Of a DNA stretch of 45,703 nucleotides, positions 2,023 through 26,544 are shown in pieces. Origin of the DNA: Methanosarcina sp. (GTDB lineage Archaea; Halobacteriota; Methanosarcinia; Methanosarcinales; Methanosarcinaceae); NCBI RefSeq assembly GCF_028693135.1, contig NZ_JAQUVZ010000027.1:1-45703 (forward strand). The letters run 5' to 3'. Under the pieces are notes generated by a model, which saw only the letters and a program-made list of their open reading frames with translations, was not told the origin of the DNA and did no database searches. Positions within the stretch are counted from its first letter, which is position 1. Each line of letters starts with the position of its first letter. The translations under genes were made by a program, and so were the position numbers.

Positions 2023-2045
2023 GACCCCTTCATTTCTACTGGAGA
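2023..2045 (-). other. Origin recognition box (ORB), G-string pointing left
   Basis: Read on the minus strand this is TCTCCAGTAGAA followed by ATGAAGGGGTC. It matches the archaeal ORB pattern: a TTCCANTGGAA dyad, then a short spacer, then a run of four Gs. It is the only ORB in this cluster in minus orientation and lies on the left edge of a very AT-rich 230-bp segment. Orc1/Cdc6 is known to bind such boxes; binding here is inferred. Confidence 0.7.
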
Positions 2046-2276
2046 GGAAAAAAGGAAATTGAAAAATAGATTTTGGGAAATAAGTTTATAAAATTCAATT
2101 TAAAATAAAAATTTAATTTTAAACTAAAGATAAAACTGTTTGTGTATTTAAGCTTCTAGATTTTTATGTTTTAATAGTAAAGTATATATACATTTAATTC
2201 TATAACAAAACAACATTATTTTGTTTTCATTACAAAATAAATCTATTTTTTATTTTGTTACCCAAATCCCAAATCC
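2046..2276. other. AT-rich segment between inverted ORBs, candidate duplex-unwinding element
   Basis: This ~230-bp stretch is almost entirely A and T, with long runs such as TTTAAAATAAAAATTTAATT (2098-2117) and TATATACATTTAATT near 2184. A minus-oriented ORB lies on its left and two plus-oriented ORBs on its right. That is the arrangement known from characterised archaeal origins. Its role as the unwinding site is inference. Confidence 0.55.
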
Positions 2277-2300
2277 CTTTCAGTGGAAACCATGGGGTCC
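2277..2300 (+). other. Origin recognition box (ORB)
   Basis: The site reads CTTTCAGTGGAAAC then CATGGGGTCC. It keeps the GTGGAAAC half-dyad and the GGGGT string of the archaeal ORB consensus, with one change in the left half (TTCAG for TCCAG). It is in plus orientation, right of the AT-rich segment. Confidence 0.75.
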
Positions 2301-2314
2301 GGGTGTTATATAAA

Positions 2315-2338
2315 CTTTCCAATGGAAACAAAGGGGTC
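2315..2338 (+). other. Origin recognition box (ORB), best match
   Basis: The site reads CTTTCCAATGGAAAC then AAAGGGGTC. It has an intact TTCCAATGGAA dyad and a GGGGT string at the expected spacing. It is 38 bp from the preceding ORB in the same orientation, close to four helical turns. Confidence 0.8.
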
Positions 2339-2954: not shown

Positions 2955-4484
2955 TCAGGTTTCAAGAGGTGAAATATCTTCTTTGTGGGTAGTTTTTCCA
3001 TGGAGCTTTAAATGGTTTACGCGGTCGAATTCTTTGAGGATTTCTTCTGCAGGACCTTCCTTATCCAGAATACTGAGGAGGTAGATTGTTATACATGAGA
3101 GGAAGAAACCAGGGACAATTTCATACATGTCAAAAATTCCACCTGAGAGTTGCTTCCAGACGATAACGACGAAGCCACCGACAATCATTCCTCCGAGCGC
3201 TCCATTTCTGGTTGTTTTTCTCCAGAAAAGAGAGAATAAGACAACAGGCCCAAAGGCTGCTCCAAATCCTGCCCAGGCATATGAGACCAGGCCCATAACC
3301 GAGTTATTAGGATCTCTCGCTATTAGATATGCAATTGCTGAAATTGCAATAACTGCAAACCTGCCCATCCAGACTAGCTCTTTTTCTCCTGCATCTCTTT
3401 TTACTATTATCCTGTAGATATCTTCGGTAAAGGCAGAAGCAGCCACAAGGAGCTGGGAATCAGCAGTACTCATAATAGCTGCAAGGATAGCCGCAAGGAG
3501 AATTCCTGCAATAACAGGAGTAAAAGTACTGTTTACCATTACCATAAAGATAGTTTCGCTTCCCGCGTCTCCAAGAAACTCAGGATAGAGGTAAGCTCTT
3601 CCGATAATTCCGCCTGCTACAGCAAAAAACAGGGAGATAATAACCCAGACCATTGCAATAAGTCTTGCCTGTTTTATTTTGTCAGGGGATTCTATGGCCA
3701 TAAAACGGACCAGGATATGTGGCATACCAAAGTATCCCAGGCCCCAGGCCAGGTTTGAGATAAGGGGAATTGAGCCTCCAGAAAGAGCAGTCCAGGGGTT
3801 AAGCAGCTGCGGGTCTATACTCTTAATAAGGCTTACAGTCGAATCATAACCTCCCATTCCCTTTAGGGCTGCAAGGGGCACGAAAACAATGGCGCAGACC
3901 ATTAGCATTCCCTGGAAAAAGTCGGTCCAGCAGACAGCCATGAAACCTCCCAGAAATGTGTAGCTAATAATTACCAGTGCGCCGATAAGAAGAGATTGCT
4001 GATAGGGAATTTCAAAAACAGTATTGAAAAGCTTTCCGCCTGCGACAAGTCCGGAGGAAGTGTAAAGCAGGAAAAAGACCAGAATCAGAATAGATGAGAT
4101 AATTCTCAAAGCGTGGCTTTTGTCTCTGAACCTGTTTTCAAAGTACACAGGAATGGTAATAGAATCTCCTGCAATCTGGGTATATTGGCGCAATTTCTTT
4201 GCAACGAATTTCCAGTTCAGGTATGTTCCAGCAGCCAGACCCACTCCTACCCAGATAGATTCCATTCCTGCAAGATAAGCATATCCGGGTAATCCCATTA
4301 GCAACCAGCCGCTCATATCCGATGCCTGCGAACTCAGCGCAGTAACCCAGCTGTTTAGTTTTCTTCCTCCTAAAATATAATCTGCAAGATTCTCCGTTTT
4401 TCGATAATAGAGAACTCCGATGGCGATCATAAAAAGCAGATATACTGCGAAAACAAGTACAATACTAAAATTATCTGATACCAT
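2955..4484 (-). CDS. putP: Sodium:solute symporter, PutP/proline type
   Basis: This is a 509-residue integral membrane protein of the sodium:solute symporter (SSS) family with roughly 12-13 hydrophobic segments, consistent with the LeuT fold. The N-terminal segment begins with an external MVSDNFS, then a helix and YYRKTENLADYILGGRKL, the loop typical of the family. LSSQASDMSGWLLMGLPGYAY (residues ~50-70) carries the Ser/Asp region that binds Na+ and proline in PutP. The signature around residues 150-190 (GLVAGGKLF, GGFMAVCWTDF) is also PutP-like. It most likely imports proline or glycine betaine-like solutes with Na+. Start at ATG 4484; no strong ribosome site is visible because a 19-bp tandem repeat begins within ~10 bases upstream. 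The gene sits between two ORB clusters. The exact substrate is inferred. Confidence 0.88.
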   Translation of the reverse strand: MVSDNFSIVLVFAVYLLFMIAIGVLYYRKTENLADYILGGRKLNSWVTALSSQASDMSGWLLMGLPGYAYLAGMESIWVGVGLAAGTYLNWKFVAKKLRQYTQIAGDSITIPVYFENRFRDKSHALRIISSILILVFFLLYTSSGLVAGGKLFNTVFEIPYQQSLLIGALVIISYTFLGGFMAVCWTDFFQGMLMVCAIVFVPLAALKGMGGYDSTVSLIKSIDPQLLNPWTALSGGSIPLISNLAWGLGYFGMPHILVRFMAIESPDKIKQARLIAMVWVIISLFFAVAGGIIGRAYLYPEFLGDAGSETIFMVMVNSTFTPVIAGILLAAILAAIMSTADSQLLVAASAFTEDIYRIIVKRDAGEKELVWMGRFAVIAISAIAYLIARDPNNSVMGLVSYAWAGFGAAFGPVVLFSLFWRKTTRNGALGGMIVGGFVVIVWKQLSGGIFDMYEIVPGFFLSCITIYLLSILDKEGPAEEILKEFDRVNHLKLHGKTTHKEDISPLET

Positions 4485-4494
4485 TGTTTAACTC

Positions 4495-4643
4495 CAGTTT
4501 TTTTAGTAAACATCAGTTTTTTTAGTAAACATCAGTTTTTTTAGTAAACATCAGTTTTTTTAGTAAACATCAGTTTTTTTAGTAAACATCAGTTTTTTTA
4601 GTAAACATCAGTTTTTTTTAGTAAACATCAGTTTTTAGTAAAT
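4495..4643. repeat. 19-bp tandem repeat directly upstream of the symporter gene
   Basis: The unit CAGTTTTTTTAGTAAACAT is repeated about eight times with slight T-run length variation. It starts about ten bases before the symporter start codon, so the 5' leader, if any, is made of repeats. Slippage in the T-runs could vary promoter-to-start spacing; that effect is inference. Confidence 0.9.
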
Positions 4644-5391
4644 TTCTTGTAAGCTTCTTATATCTAACAAATATCCTGTGTTTTCACAGGTTCCATTATC
4701 TTACAGGTCTCTGTCCTCATAGCTATAGATAAGCAGTTTTCTAAAGGTAACATTATTTCAGCTAAGATTACTTCAGCTAAGATTACTTTCATCTGTAAAT
4801 TTGCCAGTTACAGTGATTCTATCTGTAGCTATGTTTAGAGGCGTATATTATTTAGAACACAATTTTATTGTATGCTATTTATACTGTTAAAAATAATTCA
4901 TAGCAGTTTTATAATACTATTTTGTTCTTCGAACATTATAAACGGTTCGTTTTATTTCGGCGCATTGGGTAAATTATTGAGAGTGTTACAACTTTCGATT
5001 TATCTCTCTTCAAAATTTCCTTTGTTAGCTTAGTTGATAAGTAAAATTACAGTATAAAATCATTAAATGAACAGTTCTAAAATCTAATAAGCTATTCTAA
5101 TAACAAATTTTTAAAAAACAATCAATTTTGGAAACTATACAATTTAAATAAAATTTATAATTAAATACATAAGCATAGCTAATTTTTTATGTATTTACAC
5201 TCCAGAGATATAGTTACTTTTGATGTATATTCCTTATTTTCTGTCAAACTGTCTTTATTTTTTAGGTAATCATTTTGTTATCACCCATCTTCTTAATATC
5301 AAAACTGTTTTTATTTTTAATATATCCACATTCGTTTCAGTATAGCTGTTTGTTTTCTTGTCATTATTATTTTGTGCTAAAAATTTTTAAT
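4644..5391. other. AT-rich intergenic DNA left of the second ORB cluster
   Basis: No gene is visible. From about 4850 to 5280 the sequence is extremely AT-rich (for example 5090-5170). It lies immediately left of three plus-oriented ORB-like sites. The plus-strand open frame at 5275-5544 runs through ORBs and is not supported as a gene. No minus-oriented ORB was found on its left side. Confidence 0.5.
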
Positions 5392-5415
5392 CATTCACTG
5401 GAAGCAAAGGGGTTC
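5392..5415 (+). other. Origin recognition box (ORB)
   Basis: The site reads CATTCACTGGAAGC then AAAGGGGTTC. The TTCACTGGAA dyad and the GGGGT string are at the consensus spacing. It is in plus orientation, about 0.85 kb upstream of orc1. Confidence 0.7.
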
Positions 5416-5430
5416 AATATTTTCCTATAT

Positions 5431-5452
5431 TTTTCCATTCGAAAAAGGGGAT
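5431..5452 (+). other. Degenerate ORB-like site
   Basis: The site reads TTTTCCATTCGAAA then AAGGGGAT. The dyad is imperfect and the spacer to the GGGG run is shorter than in the other copies. It is listed because it lies between two better boxes in the same orientation. Confidence 0.35.
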
Positions 5453-5555
5453 TTAAAACTGACCTCCAGGGGTGCTGGAAGTATAAATCTTTTATTTTTT
5501 TAAAACTGAATCTGATGATATCGATTTATTCAGGGGAAATTTAAGGGAAATGTCC

Positions 5556-5578
5556 GTTCCATTGGAAATGAAGGGGGC
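5556..5578 (+). other. Origin recognition box (ORB)
   Basis: The site reads GTTCCATTGGAAATG then AAGGGGGC. It has an intact TTCCATTGGAA palindrome and a run of five Gs at the expected distance. It is the rightmost box of the second cluster. Confidence 0.75.
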
Positions 5579-6255
5579 TTAACCATAACTATTAATACCG
5601 TGTACTTCCATTGCATCTACTGCAAATATACCTTAAAATCAAATGTTTATATATAAATATAATCTAAAATTTTGGGAAATGAAAATCCCGATTACAGGTT
5701 ATTACAGGTTTTATCAGGGCTTAAGAGATGCTTTAAACTACGTAACTCCCTCTCCACTTTATCCCCTGCCTGTTGAAAACATAAAAATCAGGCATTAACT
5801 TTAAGAAACATGCATTTATCTATCCATTTCCCTTTGTGAAATTCTTATCCATAAGGTTTGACTTATCTAAATTATACTAAACAACAAATCAGGTTTCCAG
5901 AATTACTGAGATTACTGAGAATCAAGAGTAAAAGACACTTTGAAAATTAACAGTTATACCTTTCCATATATCTTTTCCAAGTCTGGGTGATATACTGTCT
6001 GATAGGGTGATATACTGTCTGATATATTCTGTCTGGATGGTGTTCTGAGTTTCCAATATACTAACTTTAAAATTAAAAAAAGGAAAAAAGTACGTATGAA
6101 CTCATAAAGTGTGCATATGTCAATTAAATTTATTTAATGAGTTATTAACTTTGCATACTCTACCGGTGTATTAACCGTACATATTAATTGTCCATATAAA
6201 CCATCTTAACCCGTTACATCTGGGTATTATAATTTTTATGCGAAGAGGGTTATTC
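5579..6255. promoter_or_regulatory. Upstream region of orc1/cdc6
   Basis: This is AT-rich non-coding DNA between the second ORB cluster and orc1. A 20-bp unit, GGGTGATATACTGTCTGATA, occurs twice near 5985-6023. A TATA-like element (CCATATAAACC, about 6192-6202) lies about 60 bases upstream of the preferred start. No coding sequence is supported. Confidence 0.45.
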
Positions 6256-7500
6256 ATGATAAAGGCTCAATCATTAGACGGCTTATTCGAAAAATTACTT
6301 GACGGAAAGTCAATTTTCAAAAACAAAGAGGTTCTTCGTCCTTCTTATACACCGGATCTGTTATTACACAGGAACGAACAGATAAACAGCCTTGCAACTA
6401 TCCTTGTTTCTGCACTCAGGGGAGAGACCCCCTCCAATGTCCTGATTTACGGGAAAACAGGGACAGGAAAGACTGCAGTGACCAGATATGTAGGAAAAGA
6501 ACTTGAAAGGGTAAGTGAAGAGAAGTCCATTTTTTGTTCTGTTGTTTATATTAACTGTGAGGTAATCGATACTCAGTACAGGCTTCTTGCAAATCTTGCC
6601 AGGCATTTTGAAGAAGAGGTCCCTATGACCGGGTGGCCCACGGACCAGGTCTTCATGAAATTTAAGGAAGCAATCGATGCAAGAGATCAGGTTATTATCA
6701 TCATTCTGGACGAAATTGACAAGCTGATCAAGAAAGGTGATGATGTCCTCTACAACCTTTCAAGAATCAATACCGACCTCAAAAAAGCCAAGGTCAGCAT
6801 GATAGGGGTTTCTAACGACCTTAAATTTACTGAGTTTCTGGATCCCAGAGTCAGAAGTTCCCTGGGTGAAGAAGAACTGATCTTTCCGCCTTATGATGCT
6901 GAGCAGATCAGCGACATCCTGAAGCAAAGGGCAAAAATGGCTTACAACGATGGAGTGCTGGGCGAAATGGTAATCCCTCTCTGTGCAGCCTTTGCAGCTC
7001 AGGAACACGGCGATGCCCGCAGGGCACTTGACCTTCTGCGCGTTTCAGGAGAAATTGCAGAGAGAGAAAACCAGCCCCAGGTTCTTGAAGAGCACGTCAG
7101 GCGTGCGCAGGAAAAGATCGAAGTCGACCGCGTCGTAGAAGTTGTAAGGACCCTCCCCACCCAGTCCAAGCTTGTGCTCTACAGCATCATCATGCTCAGG
7201 AGCCGGGGAAGAGAAGGCAAGAACGTCACAACCGGTGAGATGTATAATGTCTACCGCCAGCTCTGTCATCATATCGACGTGGATATCCTTACCCAGCGCA
7301 GGGTTACCGATCTGATGTCAGAACTTGACATGCTGGGAATAGTGAATGCCGTGGTAGTTAGCAAGGGTCGTTACGGAAGGACAAAAGAAATTTCGTTGAG
7401 CGTTCCTGTGGAAAACACCCGCAAAGTACTTCTTGAAGACTACAGGCTCAAACCTCTTGTAGATTTCAAAGCTTCTGTCTTTAACAAGATGTTTTCATAA
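6256..7500 (+). CDS. cdc6: Orc1/Cdc6 replication initiator, AAA+ ATPase
   Basis: The gene encodes the archaeal initiator that binds ORBs, melts the origin and loads MCM. The preferred start is ATG 6256 (MIKAQSLDGLFEKLL, 414 residues), because GAGG at 6245-6248 sits seven bases upstream; ATG 6238 would add six residues. The AAA+ domain contains Walker A YGKTGTGKTA (near residue 70), Walker B IIILDEIDK (near 155), a sensor 1 region (MIGVSNDLKF) and the arginine-rich DPRVRSSL stretch. The C-terminal third (from ~residue 285) is the winged-helix ORB-binding domain. The length is normal for the family. It lies directly downstream of ORB-bearing AT-rich DNA, which is the standard archaeal origin arrangement. 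The product probably binds these boxes and may regulate its own gene; that autoregulation is inferred. Confidence 0.95.
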   Translation: MIKAQSLDGLFEKLLDGKSIFKNKEVLRPSYTPDLLLHRNEQINSLATILVSALRGETPSNVLIYGKTGTGKTAVTRYVGKELERVSEEKSIFCSVVYINCEVIDTQYRLLANLARHFEEEVPMTGWPTDQVFMKFKEAIDARDQVIIIILDEIDKLIKKGDDVLYNLSRINTDLKKAKVSMIGVSNDLKFTEFLDPRVRSSLGEEELIFPPYDAEQISDILKQRAKMAYNDGVLGEMVIPLCAAFAAQEHGDARRALDLLRVSGEIAERENQPQVLEEHVRRAQEKIEVDRVVEVVRTLPTQSKLVLYSIIMLRSRGREGKNVTTGEMYNVYRQLCHHIDVDILTQRRVTDLMSELDMLGIVNAVVVSKGRYGRTKEISLSVPVENTRKVLLEDYRLKPLVDFKASVFNKMFS

Positions 7501-8690: not shown

Positions 8691-8818
8691 CATTTCAAGA
8701 ACAAACCCGGAAAATGATGTTTTAAGAACAGATTTGATAGACTAACTTCTCTGAAGACAGCAAGTTATTTCTGTTGAACAGTGTCGAAAAATCAATTCAA
8801 CTGAAAATTTTCCGGAAC

Positions 8819-8920
8819 AATCACATTGAGATCAATCACATTGAGATCAATCACATTGAGATCAATCACATTGAGATCAATCACATTGAGATCAATCACA
8901 TTGAGATCAATCACATTGAG
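8819..8920. repeat. 15-bp tandem repeat between UPF0200 and UPF0201 genes
   Basis: The unit TCACATTGAGATCAA is repeated about seven times with almost no divergence and ends 20 bases before the UPF0201 start codon. Because the unit length is a multiple of three, it leaves an open frame on the minus strand; that frame is an artefact of the repeat. Confidence 0.93.
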
Positions 8921-8939
8921 AGTATAGTGGAGTAGATTT

Positions 8940-17415: not shown

Positions 17416-18807
<1,392 letters not shown>

Positions 18808-20771: not shown

Positions 20772-20795
20772 AACCCCTTTATTTCCACTGGAACC
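20772..20795 (-). other. Origin recognition box (ORB)
   Basis: On the minus strand the site reads GGTTCCAGTGGAAAT then AAAGGGGTT, an intact ORB dyad plus G-string. It lies 14.5 kb from orc1 and 0.5 kb from the 3' end of the RPA1 gene. Confidence 0.75.
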
Positions 20796-20949: not shown

Positions 20950-20973
20950 GACCCCTACATTTCCACTGGAACC
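20950..20973 (-). other. Origin recognition box (ORB)
   Basis: On the minus strand the site reads GGTTCCAGTGGAAAT then GTAGGGGTC. It has the same orientation as the box at 20772 and is centred 178 bp from it, with AT-rich DNA between and to the right. Confidence 0.75.
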
Positions 20974-21323: not shown

Positions 21324-22778
21324 TCAGAGAATAATCACTCTGCTCCTGTTCCCAACACTAAGTTCTATTTCTTCGTTCAAACCATATTTAGCATAAGCGT
21401 CAATGATCTGGATCTCGGAGTCGATATCGAGGTCCTCTATCACATAGGCCTGTTCTCCCCAGAGAGTTAACCGGATATTGCCTGTTTCATCCTTAAGCTG
21501 CAGGTTTGCGACAACACTGTCGGTTCCATCTTCCTTCTCAAACTCTCTCAGTTCGCCGATTTCGGAAACTTTTCCCTGGACAGAATAACTTTCTCCCGGG
21601 ATAATGTCGGTGATGTCAGTAAATTTCTCTCTGTACTCAACCTTTTTTTCACTTCTCTGAATTATTCCTCTGGCTCCCAGGCTGAGTTCCACCTGCTGGC
21701 TGAAAGTGTTTTCCCGAGAATATGCATTGAGAACCTCCACTGTTTCATCGAAGTCAATCTCCTCAAGAAAATCGGTTTTTTCGTCCCAGAGGGTAAGCCT
21801 GATTTTGCCTGTGGAATCTCCCAGGAGGAGATTTCCAACTCTACCGGAAGATCCGTCTTTTTTCTCGAAGGCCCGGACTTCTGAGATGTCAAGTATCCTA
21901 CCTGAAATATTGATATTATTCATGTCAGCTTTTATATCTGCAACAGGGGTAAACTCTTCTTTATATTCGATTTCCTTTTCGCTTTTCCTGATGATACTCC
22001 GGTTTCCGATTTGCAGCTCCACTTTCTGCGTAAAGGCATTTTCACGGGCGTAAGCATTGATCAGTTCAACAGTGTCCCCATACTCAATCTGGGTTAAAAA
22101 ATCGGTTTTTTCGTCCCAGAGCGTCACTCTGAGGGTGCCTGTGGAATCTCCAAGCGTCAGGTTTCCAACTCTCCCGCTGTTCCCGTCTTTGCGCTGGAAG
22201 GTCCTGACTTCAGAAACCTCAAGCACTTTTCCCATAAGGTTGAGGTCTCCCATTCCGTCTTTTATGTCCTTTATATTCTGGCTGGCCGAAACAACATCAA
22301 CTTCTTCTTCACTTTCGGTCAGGACTCCATTATTGCCGATGTTAATTTCCACTCCGGAATAGCCCTGCTTTGCATGGCCGCTGACCTGAACGGTTTGCCC
22401 TACCTTTACTTTTTCGAGTTTAATCAGGTCTGCCATATTGTCCCAAAGGGTTAACTTTACTTTTCCGGTTTCGTCTCCGACAATGAGATTTCCAACTCTG
22501 CCTATAGTGCCGTCGTTTCGGGTAAATTCCTTGATATCAAAAATCGAAACAATTCTTGCAACAAAATTAACAGGTCCGCTCTCGGGTGTAATACTTTCTA
22601 TTTTTACGCTGTCTCTGCCCGCATCCGAGAATCCCAGTTCATTGGCAACCAGCATGGCAGCCATCGCCTCATCACAAAGCCCTCCCATGTTCTCGACCTT
22701 TTCCTGTGTGCGCTGCAGGAAATCCTCTTTACTGATGACATGGCTGAGCTTCTTATAAATAGTGTCAATATCGGTCAT
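21324..22778 (-). CDS. rpa1: Replication protein A, single-stranded DNA-binding protein with four OB folds
   Basis: This 484-residue cytosolic protein coats single-stranded DNA in replication and repair. After an N-terminal helical segment, four OB folds are visible near residues 68-165, 172-275, 280-380 and 385-484. Each has the same core: an acidic or Lys-rich loop, GRVGNL, then GDxTG and LTLWD. The fourth is more divergent (VVANLQLKDETG, LTLWGEQ). There is no zinc finger, so it is the multi-OB RPA1 type known from Methanosarcina rather than the zinc-finger RPA2/3 type. ATG 22778 follows GGGAG at five bases. Repeats 2 and 3 are very alike even at DNA level, pointing to recent internal duplication. 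The gene lies near two ORBs and 14 kb from orc1. Confidence 0.93.
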   Translation of the reverse strand: MTDIDTIYKKLSHVISKEDFLQRTQEKVENMGGLCDEAMAAMLVANELGFSDAGRDSVKIESITPESGPVNFVARIVSIFDIKEFTRNDGTIGRVGNLIVGDETGKVKLTLWDNMADLIKLEKVKVGQTVQVSGHAKQGYSGVEINIGNNGVLTESEEEVDVVSASQNIKDIKDGMGDLNLMGKVLEVSEVRTFQRKDGNSGRVGNLTLGDSTGTLRVTLWDEKTDFLTQIEYGDTVELINAYARENAFTQKVELQIGNRSIIRKSEKEIEYKEEFTPVADIKADMNNINISGRILDISEVRAFEKKDGSSGRVGNLLLGDSTGKIRLTLWDEKTDFLEEIDFDETVEVLNAYSRENTFSQQVELSLGARGIIQRSEKKVEYREKFTDITDIIPGESYSVQGKVSEIGELREFEKEDGTDSVVANLQLKDETGNIRLTLWGEQAYVIEDLDIDSEIQIIDAYAKYGLNEEIELSVGNRSRVIIL

Positions 22779-23314: not shown

Positions 23315-24397
23315 ATGAGAATAAATAACGTCCAGTTCCTCTCAAACATGGCTAATGTTCTCTCGCTGCTTTTTATTCCCGTTTTTGCCGCATCATTCGG
23401 CGCTTCTTATGTCGAGATCGGGATTATAGTGGGGATCTATTCTGCCACAACCCTTCTTTCGTCCTTTATTTTCGGAAGGTTTGCTGACCTTCACCACCTG
23501 CGTATAGTAATTCTGGGAGGTTTTGGATGTGCTGCAGCCGCCTTTTTTCTTCAGGTTTTTGCCACCGATCCTTTTACCCTCATGCTTGCAAGGGCTCTAG
23601 CCGGTTTCAGTGTTGGTATTCACCCGGGTGCCCTGATAGCCTACGTCCATTATCAGAATCAGAGCCTTGGAAGGTTCATTTCTCTGGGTTCTCTTGGCTG
23701 GATGGCGGGTTTTCTCCTGGCAGGAGTGATAGGGATAAGAATGAATCTGCTTTTTGGACTTTCATCTCTTTTTTATGCCTTATGTTTCCTGCAGGCTTTC
23801 AGGTTAAAAGACATTGAAAAGCCGGAATTGAATGTTTCTTACTTCTCCCTTAACACCCTGCTGAATAATTCAGGGACCTATTTCTCTCTCTTCCTGCGGC
23901 ATACCGGCGCCGTCGGGGTCTGGACTATTTTTCCCCTCTATCTCCGGGAGCTCGGAGCAGATGCTTTCTGGATCGGAGTTATTTATGCTATAAATCCTGC
24001 AGTCCAATTTTTGATAATGCGCAGGCTTGACCCGTTTGAAAACGAAAAGCTGATCCGTGCGGGCTACCTGCTCTCAGTGATCGGTTTTATCAGTTATGCC
24101 CTTGCCTCCTCTTATCTTTACGTCATCCCCGGGATGTTCGTTATTGCCTGCTCCTGGTCTTTTCTCTATGTGGGCTCAACCCGCAGGGTTGTGGAGTTGA
24201 ACCCTGATAAAGCTACAGCAGCAGGTCTGATTAACTCAATGATTGGGGCAGCAGGGGTTGTGGGAGCCATTCTTGGAGGTGGCTTATCCCAGCTTTTCGG
24301 CTTCAGGGCGACCATGTTCGGAGCTGCTATCTTCTCTATTTCAGGCTTTCTGCTCTACAAAATTCTGGGAAGGGCGGCAGGCACGAGGGACAACTGA
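23315..24397 (+). CDS. Major facilitator superfamily transporter
   Basis: This 360-residue membrane protein has about 11-12 hydrophobic helices. The loop between helices 2 and 3 reads GRFADLHHLR, a variant of the MFS motif A GxxxD(R/K)xGRR. It is followed by LARALAGFSVGIHPGALIAY, typical of helix 4 (motif B-like). A second half begins near residue 180 after the short central loop RLKDIEKPELNVSYFS. It is shorter than most drug:proton antiporters (about 400) and gives no clue to substrate. ATG 23315 is preferred over the adjacent TTG 23312; no strong ribosome site is seen. An operator-like inverted repeat lies upstream at 23181. A tandem array begins exactly at its stop codon. Confidence 0.85.
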   Translation: MRINNVQFLSNMANVLSLLFIPVFAASFGASYVEIGIIVGIYSATTLLSSFIFGRFADLHHLRIVILGGFGCAAAAFFLQVFATDPFTLMLARALAGFSVGIHPGALIAYVHYQNQSLGRFISLGSLGWMAGFLLAGVIGIRMNLLFGLSSLFYALCFLQAFRLKDIEKPELNVSYFSLNTLLNNSGTYFSLFLRHTGAVGVWTIFPLYLRELGADAFWIGVIYAINPAVQFLIMRRLDPFENEKLIRAGYLLSVIGFISYALASSYLYVIPGMFVIACSWSFLYVGSTRRVVELNPDKATAAGLINSMIGAAGVVGAILGGGLSQLFGFRATMFGAAIFSISGFLLYKILGRAAGTRDN

Positions 24398-24600
24398 AAA
24401 GATAAACTGAGAAGATAAACTTGGAAGATAAACTTGGAAGATAAACTTGGAACATAAACTGAGAAGATAAACTGAGATGATAAACTGAGATGATAAACTG
24501 AGATGATAAACTGAGATGATAAACTGAGATGATAAACTGAGAAGATAAACTGAGAAGATAAACTGAGAAGATAAACTGAGAAGATAAACTGAGAAGATGA
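24393..24600. repeat. 14-15-bp tandem repeat beginning at the MFS stop codon
   Basis: The unit GATAAACTGAGAA (with variants GATAAACTTGGAA and GATAAACTGAGAT) is repeated about fourteen times. The first AACTGA includes the stop codon of the MFS gene, so the array seems to have grown out of the gene end. It continues to within ~100 bases of the KptA start; 24601-24699 shows no gene. Confidence 0.92.
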
Positions 24601-25476: not shown

Positions 25477-26544
25477 TCAGTCTACCGATACTTCAAAAAG
25501 TCCATCTTTTTCTTTTATCCTGAACTTCACCTCCAGAAACTGTTCTGTGACCCAGATGTTTGTTGCCGCATGTAAAGTTATTTCACGGGCCGTGTAAGAA
25601 CTGTTTCCTGCAAGTGCCATATACGGGATCAACTGGTCTGCTAGATGTACATCTACAGAGGCTTCTGTTCTGAGTTCCGAGATGATTTCTTCTGCAGCGC
25701 GCCTGCCCACTTTTTCAGCAGGCAGCCCTCTTTCTCCAAGGGCACTTCCCCCACAATAACCAGACCAGAGGGTTATCCCGCTTCCTGTGGAAAGCAATTC
25801 GCAGGCTCGGACATTGATCCGTGAACCGTATCCGGCTTCAAGAAGCATGGATTCGGCAGCTTCAGCCTGGCGGGATGGCACATGCGCCGGAAGATTCGAT
25901 GCATGTGAAATTCCCATGACTTCTTTCCCATGGTTCTGTTTCTTCTCTCCTTTCTGGTTTTTTTCTTCGATTCGGTTTTCTCCGCCTTTTTTGTTTTCTC
26001 CTTCCTTCCGGAAATGAAAACCACGAAGCTTGCAGGGTTCAAACACAGCTGAGACCTCGCCTCCTCCCCTGGGATAGTAACCGCGTTTTTTCAGGGTTAC
26101 GCTGCCCGCGTATCCAAGCTGTTCAAGGGCCCTGAAGGTTACATGCTGAAGGTAGTCAATCGTAGGGGACCAGGCAACATCAGTTCCTCCCCTTATCGTT
26201 AGTTCGACCTTTTCTTTTGCGAAAGGCAGGGCTGGCATAAGGCTTTGTAGAAGCAGGGTTATGCTTCCTGCGGTCCCTATATCAATCTCATATTTACCCC
26301 CCTTTATTTCCACTGGAGCAAAAAATAACTCTGAAGAACCCGGAAAAAGTCCTGAAACCCGTGCTCCGCAGATCCTGGCTGCAGTTTCCAGAGCTTTCAA
26401 ATGCTGTTGTTTCAGGCCGGGATTTGGTCTGTTTTTCCTTATGTTCGTAACCTTTACTTTTTTTCCGGTAACTGCAGAAAGGGCAACAGCTGTTCTGACA
26501 ACTTGTCCCCCTCCTTCCCCATATGAACCGTCAATTTCTATCAT
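25477..26544 (-). CDS. rtcA: RNA 3'-terminal phosphate cyclase
   Basis: RtcA converts a 3'-phosphate RNA end to a 2',3'-cyclic phosphate using ATP. DGSYGEGGGQVVRTAVALSA (residues 5-24) is the family's N-terminal signature. RPNPGLKQQHLKALE (~40-54) and GRRAAEEII also match. HLADQLIPYMALAG near residue 310 holds the active-site His that is adenylylated. A hydrophilic, Lys/Glu/Asn-rich insert (about residues 180-215) lies in the middle and is not typical. The gene also carries an ORB-like sequence at 26296. ATG 26544 has GGGAGAGGG just upstream. It lies 130 bases downstream of the FAD oxidoreductase gene on the same strand. Confidence 0.93.
   Translation of the reverse strand: MIEIDGSYGEGGGQVVRTAVALSAVTGKKVKVTNIRKNRPNPGLKQQHLKALETAARICGARVSGLFPGSSELFFAPVEIKGGKYEIDIGTAGSITLLLQSLMPALPFAKEKVELTIRGGTDVAWSPTIDYLQHVTFRALEQLGYAGSVTLKKRGYYPRGGGEVSAVFEPCKLRGFHFRKEGENKKGGENRIEEKNQKGEKKQNHGKEVMGISHASNLPAHVPSRQAEAAESMLLEAGYGSRINVRACELLSTGSGITLWSGYCGGSALGERGLPAEKVGRRAAEEIISELRTEASVDVHLADQLIPYMALAGNSSYTAREITLHAATNIWVTEQFLEVKFRIKEKDGLFEVSVD
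26296..26319 (-). other. ORB-like site inside the rtcA coding region
   Basis: On the minus strand the site reads GCTCCAGTGGAAAT then AAAGGGGGGT. The dyad is one base short of perfect and the G-run is longer than usual. Being coding sequence (residues ~76-83), it may be coincidental, but its match is as good as several intergenic boxes. Confidence 0.5.

Follow-up and report, generated by a model that had tools for sequence, protein, structure and literature searches.

A predicted chromosomal replication origin of Methanosarcina: anatomy of its core and conserved ORBs outside the core

Introduction

Replication origins of the type considered here have an anatomy that is well known in Archaea. 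In oriC1 of Sulfolobus, ORB2 and ORB3 are inverted around a duplex unwinding element (DUE), and the origin is dependent on Orc1-1 (PMC12141716). In Haloarcula hispanica, a cluster of ORBs downstream of oriC2 has been proposed to be a negative regulator that titrates Cdc6, and it has been likened to datA of E. coli (PMC4010727, PMC3936714). For Methanosarcina, a single origin was predicted in M. mazei by the Z-curve method (Zhang and Zhang 2002, as cited in PMC5333045 and PMC4164010), and a single origin was predicted in M. acetivorans by GC skew (as cited in PMC3984812). The Methanosarcina origin is described as a prediction made in silico that experiments have yet to validate (PMC5333045, PMC3984812), and no box-level anatomy of it is given in the text of the three reviews that deals with these predictions (PMC5333045, PMC4164010, PMC3984812).

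The window analyzed in this study has 45,703 bases and is a complete contig, one of the 89 that make up a Methanosarcina genome of 4.22 Mb. It belongs to the same genus as the two species above and likewise carries a single predicted origin. The locus resembles Sulfolobus oriC1 in its inverted ORBs around an AT-rich putative DUE, its linked orc1-1 gene, its initiator of the Orc1-1 type and a short conserved element within the DUE. The first-pass annotation of this DNA had recognized in it the layout of characterized archaeal origins, and the comparison with Sulfolobus oriC1 (PMC12141716), in which inverted ORBs, an AT-rich segment and a linked orc1 gene occur together, agrees with that view. 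Unlike Sulfolobus oriC1, however, the window has two plus-strand ORBs 39 bp apart and an orc1 gene that lies 3.9 kb away behind putP, and its AT-rich core measures 231 bp, whereas the whole ORB3-DUE-ORB2 region of Sulfolobus spans about 130 bp. In a limited search of the open literature, made without DoriC, we found no description of the split layout, the conserved core element or the outlying boxes reported below.

Results

The window shows the order mfnA, origin core, putP, second ORB pair and orc1 (Table 1). ORBs were scored as 22-mers, and mismatches were counted against the consensus TTTCCANTGGAAANRAWGGGGT. The boxes of the window fit the published ORB motif of the Methanomicrobia (PMC4164010, Ori-Finder 2). 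No Rfam families were found in the window. Simple tandem repeats are abundant in the contig, as is intergenic DNA of low complexity. Many of the intergenic repeats are short, with units of 13-19 bp in up to 16 copies (for example, 4495-4636, 2696-2781, 24392-24598 and 8818-8921), and the repeat at 18699-18739 has a 21-bp unit ending in TTCCACTGGAG, which corresponds to half an ORB.

Table 1. Positions of the genes, boxes and other elements discussed in the text.
Feature	Position	Strand	Details
mfnA	245-1432	minus	
ORB, left flank of the AT-rich core	2024-2045	minus	reverse complement TCTCCAGTAGAAATGAAGGGGT, 2 mismatches; G-string leftward
AT-rich core, putative DUE	2046-2276	none	231 bp, 18.2% GC
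Conserved element within the AT-rich core	2183-2260	plus	TATATATA...ATAAC..AACAACATTATTTTG...AAAATAAA....TTTATTTTG
ORB plus-1, weaker box	2277-2298	plus	CTTTCAGTGGAAACCATGGGGT, 3 mismatches; ..CATGGGGT
Inter-ORB spacer, TATA-like	2299-2315	plus	GGG(T/G)GTTATATAAAC
ORB plus-2, perfect match	2316-2337	plus	TTTCCAATGGAAACAAAGGGGT, 0 mismatches
putP, gene of a sodium/proline symporter, lying between the core and orc1	2955-4484	minus	TIGR02121, E=2.4e-199
Weaker orc1-proximal ORB	5392-5413	plus	4 mismatches; 163-164 bp from the next ORB in close relatives
orc1-proximal ORB, homologous to the fourth box of compact origins	5556-5577	plus	2 mismatches; aligns with L244/L247
Conserved block after the proximal ORB	5582-5626	none	ACCATAACTATTAATACCGTGTACTTCCATTGCATCTACTGCAAAT
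orc1/cdc6, Orc1-1-type initiator	6238-7500	plus	NF001625, E=7.5e-220
Outlying ORB a	20773-20794	minus	1 mismatch; beside RPA-type gene 21324-22778
Outlying ORB b	20951-20972	minus	2 mismatches
ORB-like site inside rtcA	26298-26319	minus	codons APVEIKGG

The minus-strand ORB at the left flank of the core had been placed at 2023-2045 in the first-pass annotation. The box is present, and the coordinates given for it were right within one or two bases. Both plus-strand ORBs on the right are present as well, but they are spaced 39 bp from start to start; the spacing had been given as 38 bp because the boxes were drawn one base out of register. The G-strings are directed outward from the core on both sides, as described earlier. 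The segment enclosed by the boxes had been called 230 bp of nearly pure AT. It is AT-rich, but the expression was too strong for a segment with 81.8% AT. It is the stretch of its length with the lowest GC content in the contig, and at lengths of 100 and 200 bp, too, the least stable DNA of the contig is found there. Equally AT-rich 231-bp windows make up 0.05% of the contig, and every one of them overlaps the segment; in two related genomes, 0.06-0.08% of the 231-bp windows are as AT-rich. Judging from sequence, positions 2024-2337 are very probably the core of the predicted chromosomal replication origin of Methanosarcina, which would be of the oriC1 type.

The product of orc1 found its best PDB matches in Cdc6-1 of Sulfolobus (2qby_A, 2e-113) and ORC1 of Aeropyrum (2v1u, 6e-107). 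The recognition helix (TQRRV..L.SELDMLGI) and the wing (GRYGKT/GRYGRT) are closely similar between the product and these solved homologues. The winged helix in these Orc1/Cdc6 structures reads the ORB. By its sequence, the product is assigned to the Orc1-1 type. Several complete chromosomes of Methanosarcina carry a second paralogue of orc1/cdc6, with an identity of about 31%, some 80-105 kb upstream of orc1 (G000:C66:48678-49757, G010:C1:4051966-4053042 and G001:C1:105291-106370), and a third paralogue is located on the small contig C49 (8.9 kb).

The arrangement of the core is conserved across the genus. In a search with the 39-bp spacing fixed and up to six mismatches tolerated in the weaker plus box, the triad of ORBs was found in 26 of 26 Methanosarcina-type loci, around a core of 191-429 bp with 18-26% GC. 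The minus ORB is there in every one of these loci, and plus-1 lies exactly 39 bp before plus-2 in all 26 and in other genera. Within the core, conservation in 20-bp bins is 0.79-0.85 over the approximately 78 bp of the conserved element in the right half, compared with about 0.5 in the left half, and the most conserved bin of all is the inter-ORB spacer (0.91). The element is a candidate binding site or unwinding element. Its identification with the ucm motif ATTATACAAAC found in the DUE of Sulfolobus and Aeropyrum was ruled out, since the best match in five loci had 2-3 mismatches and shuffled sequences averaged 2.4-2.7. Purine/pyrimidine asymmetry beside the core is strong in the window and inconsistent across species. 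In other genera of the Methanosarcinaceae, compared by pattern positions and short loci, a module of minus ORB, AT-rich segment, plus pair at 39 bp and further plus ORB is found upstream of orc1, at a distance of up to about 0.7 kb.

In such compact origins of related genera, the further plus ORB follows the pair by about 85-137 bp. In the compact loci L244 and L247 it is succeeded by ACCATAACTATTAATAAC...CACTTCCATTGCATC, and the same block follows the ORB at 5556-5577 in the window. Among 27 Methanosarcina-type loci, the 45-bp block shows hardly any variation in 26 (L099 does not align, and part of G013 is masked), and it is recognizable in two loci of another genus; it possibly consists of degenerate mini-ORBs or is a control element of orc1. 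Variable DNA of 0.4-5.5 kb lies between the core and the proximal ORB, and in about half of the loci it includes putP. The simplest reading of these sequences would be that an ancestral compact origin was pulled apart in the Methanosarcina lineage by putP and spacer DNA, and that both halves were kept. Several lineages that are separate from one another have putP, and within clades that have the gene, individual members can be without it. This distribution suggests, although not firmly, that putP was present early and then lost repeatedly; the orc1 tree drawn for this history has an unusable root, with the outgroup row L238 in the wrong orientation. The first-pass annotation had placed orc1 only 4 kb away, which holds for its distance from the core; the gene starts at 6238, however, and not at 6256, and putP stands between. 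Likewise, the interval of 2023-2338 proposed as the origin covers the core but not the whole origin, as there is a fourth, orc1-proximal ORB.

Conversely, the functional origin could be the proximal ORB pair (5392-5577) together with the AT-rich DNA upstream of it (approximately 5040-5240), in which case positions 2024-2337 would be a relic or an auxiliary site. The pair is less than 0.9 kb from orc1, compared with 3.9 kb for the core, among the 200-bp stretches of the contig, 5037-5236 ranks second in instability, and the block following the proximal ORB is highly conserved. At the proximal site, however, no inverted ORB is found across the AT-rich segment. The part common to the compact origins of the family is the triad with its AT-rich core, which is intact in all the Methanosarcina-type loci. 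We therefore regard an origin confined to the proximal pair as improbable.

It is worth considering whether the boxes are operators for the control of transcription, of mfnA, of putP or of orc1 itself by autoregulation, with no replication origin involved. The TATA-like GTTATATAAAC between the plus ORBs and the position of the proximal ORB block upstream of orc1 would agree with such a role. The core, however, is about 0.6 kb from mfnA and lies downstream of putP, and its layout and AT-richness match those of mapped origins. The gene putP is absent in about half of the genus, but the boxes are retained in many genomes that are without it. A weak signal in strand composition also argues against operators. 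Complete relatives were sampled as 40 x 20 kb stretches. GC skew, which had been proposed as a check on the origin, was uninformative over these stretches, but AT/keto skew switches sign at orc1. When the breakpoint was left free in G004, its best position was at this locus (p=0.007, R2 about 0.35). In G010 the best breakpoint is also at this locus, but the result is not significant overall; AT skew in this genome ranges from +0.04 to +0.06 in the four samples nearest to the locus on its left side and from -0.03 to -0.10 in the nearest five on its right side. That the boxes serve transcription only is thus very improbable.

The number of boxes was compared with the expectation. The window contains five ORBs with up to two mismatches and seven with up to three, where 0.06 would be expected at the latter threshold. 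The 1.6 Mb of sequence sampled from two complete relatives contained no ORBs with up to two mismatches, two with up to three, and no triads of the shape of the core. In the genome of the window itself, all four exact matches of one ORB pattern and all six of another are on this contig, which represents 1.1% of the genome. A chance resemblance in AT-rich intergenic DNA, for which the repeats and low-complexity DNA of the contig might speak, is opposed by these counts and refuted by the conserved layout, and its probability is negligible. The reading as a replication origin put forward in the first-pass annotation is supported by the ORB statistics, the low-GC and unstable core with its conserved element, the triads across the genus, the orc1-adjacent module of the other genera, the homology of the proximal ORB and its block with the fourth box of compact origins, the Orc1-1-type gene and, weakly, the switch in AT/keto skew.

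Five ORBs or ORB-like sites of the window, two near orc1 and three farther away, had not been named before (Table 1). The outlying pair a/b has a CBS-domain gene on one side and the gene of an RPA-type OB-fold protein on the other, and it lies 14-18 kb from the start of orc1. It was found in 16 of 16 Methanosarcina genomes with conserved flanks and a spacing of 177-179 bp (168 bp in one genome), or about 17 helical turns. For the site inside rtcA, third codon positions are 0.90-1.00 conserved across 12 genomes, compared with 0.42-0.58 in the next two codons and a mean of 0.73 for the gene, and the site ranks at the top of 49 comparable windows in this respect. This pattern suggests that the site is selected as DNA. 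A mere coincidence of coding is argued against by the conserved synonymous third positions.

A further cluster of one to three ORBs is found far from the origin, near a radical-SAM gene and towards a convergent gene for a DeoC-type aldolase. At least one ORB-like site with up to four mismatches is present in 28 of 30 loci, in one of them weakly. The cluster lies 0.2-1.8 Mb from the origin at a position that varies with species (boxes near 5-6 kb of the loci L111-L121), and the genome of the window has one weak box left there (C70:12678; L108 near 5677). Since the cluster is between convergent genes, it is not a promoter of the ordinary kind. The sister genus g11 has an ORB with one mismatch 1.1 kb beyond the radical-SAM gene; in the other genera, none with up to one mismatch was found near this gene. 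Five species of the related genus g5 have a perfect single ORB, TCCAGTGGAAACAAAGGGGT, that is about 270-330 kb away from orc1 and not close to the radical-SAM gene (for example, G034:C1:1955737, G066:C1:1857349 and G073:C1:2859832).

ORB-like sites also recur across the genus in the gene of a GntP permease, mostly about 20-29 kb to the left of the origin (G000:C66:114513, L109), and in aroE, mostly about 55-81 kb to the right (G000:C23:7479, L110). The conservation of the gntP box (0.948 versus 0.941 for the best other window) is not decisive. In several species in which this box remains, the gntP gene matches only in fragments. The orientation of the outlying ORBs relative to the origin is inconsistent across genomes.

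Discussion

On the basis of these results, initiation at the predicted origin could proceed as follows. Orc1 encoded by the gene at 6238 would bind the three ORBs with fixed polarity, and the AT-rich segment of 231 bp between the inverted boxes is expected to melt. MCM helicases would be loaded at the melted segment, and the origin would fire to give bidirectional replication. The complete origin would comprise the core and the orc1-proximal ORB at 5556-5577.

The role of the outlying boxes is less certain. Our best guess from the present analysis is that they titrate the initiator, and it is also possible, judging from their sequences, that a cluster of them is an auxiliary origin. Methanosarcina and H. 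hispanica, with its cluster at oriC2, are alike in having extra initiator boxes outside the origin core. In Methanosarcina, however, the boxes lie from kilobases to more than 1 Mb away from the origin, between genes or within a gene. A broader proposal, which we offer tentatively and regard as somewhat doubtful, is that a split oriC is combined with genus-wide outlying Orc1 boxes (the pair beside the RPA-type gene, the rtcA box and the far cluster of varying position) that act on initiation, for instance by datA-like titration of Orc1 or as auxiliary origins.

The present analysis supplies base-level coordinates for the predicted origin, together with a conserved core element as a target for mutation. 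The two halves of what would be an ancestral origin have been kept in spite of the 0.4-5.5 kb of variable DNA between them. The conserved outlying boxes, for their part, make titration of the initiator or dispersed initiation testable in the genetically tractable species of Methanosarcina.
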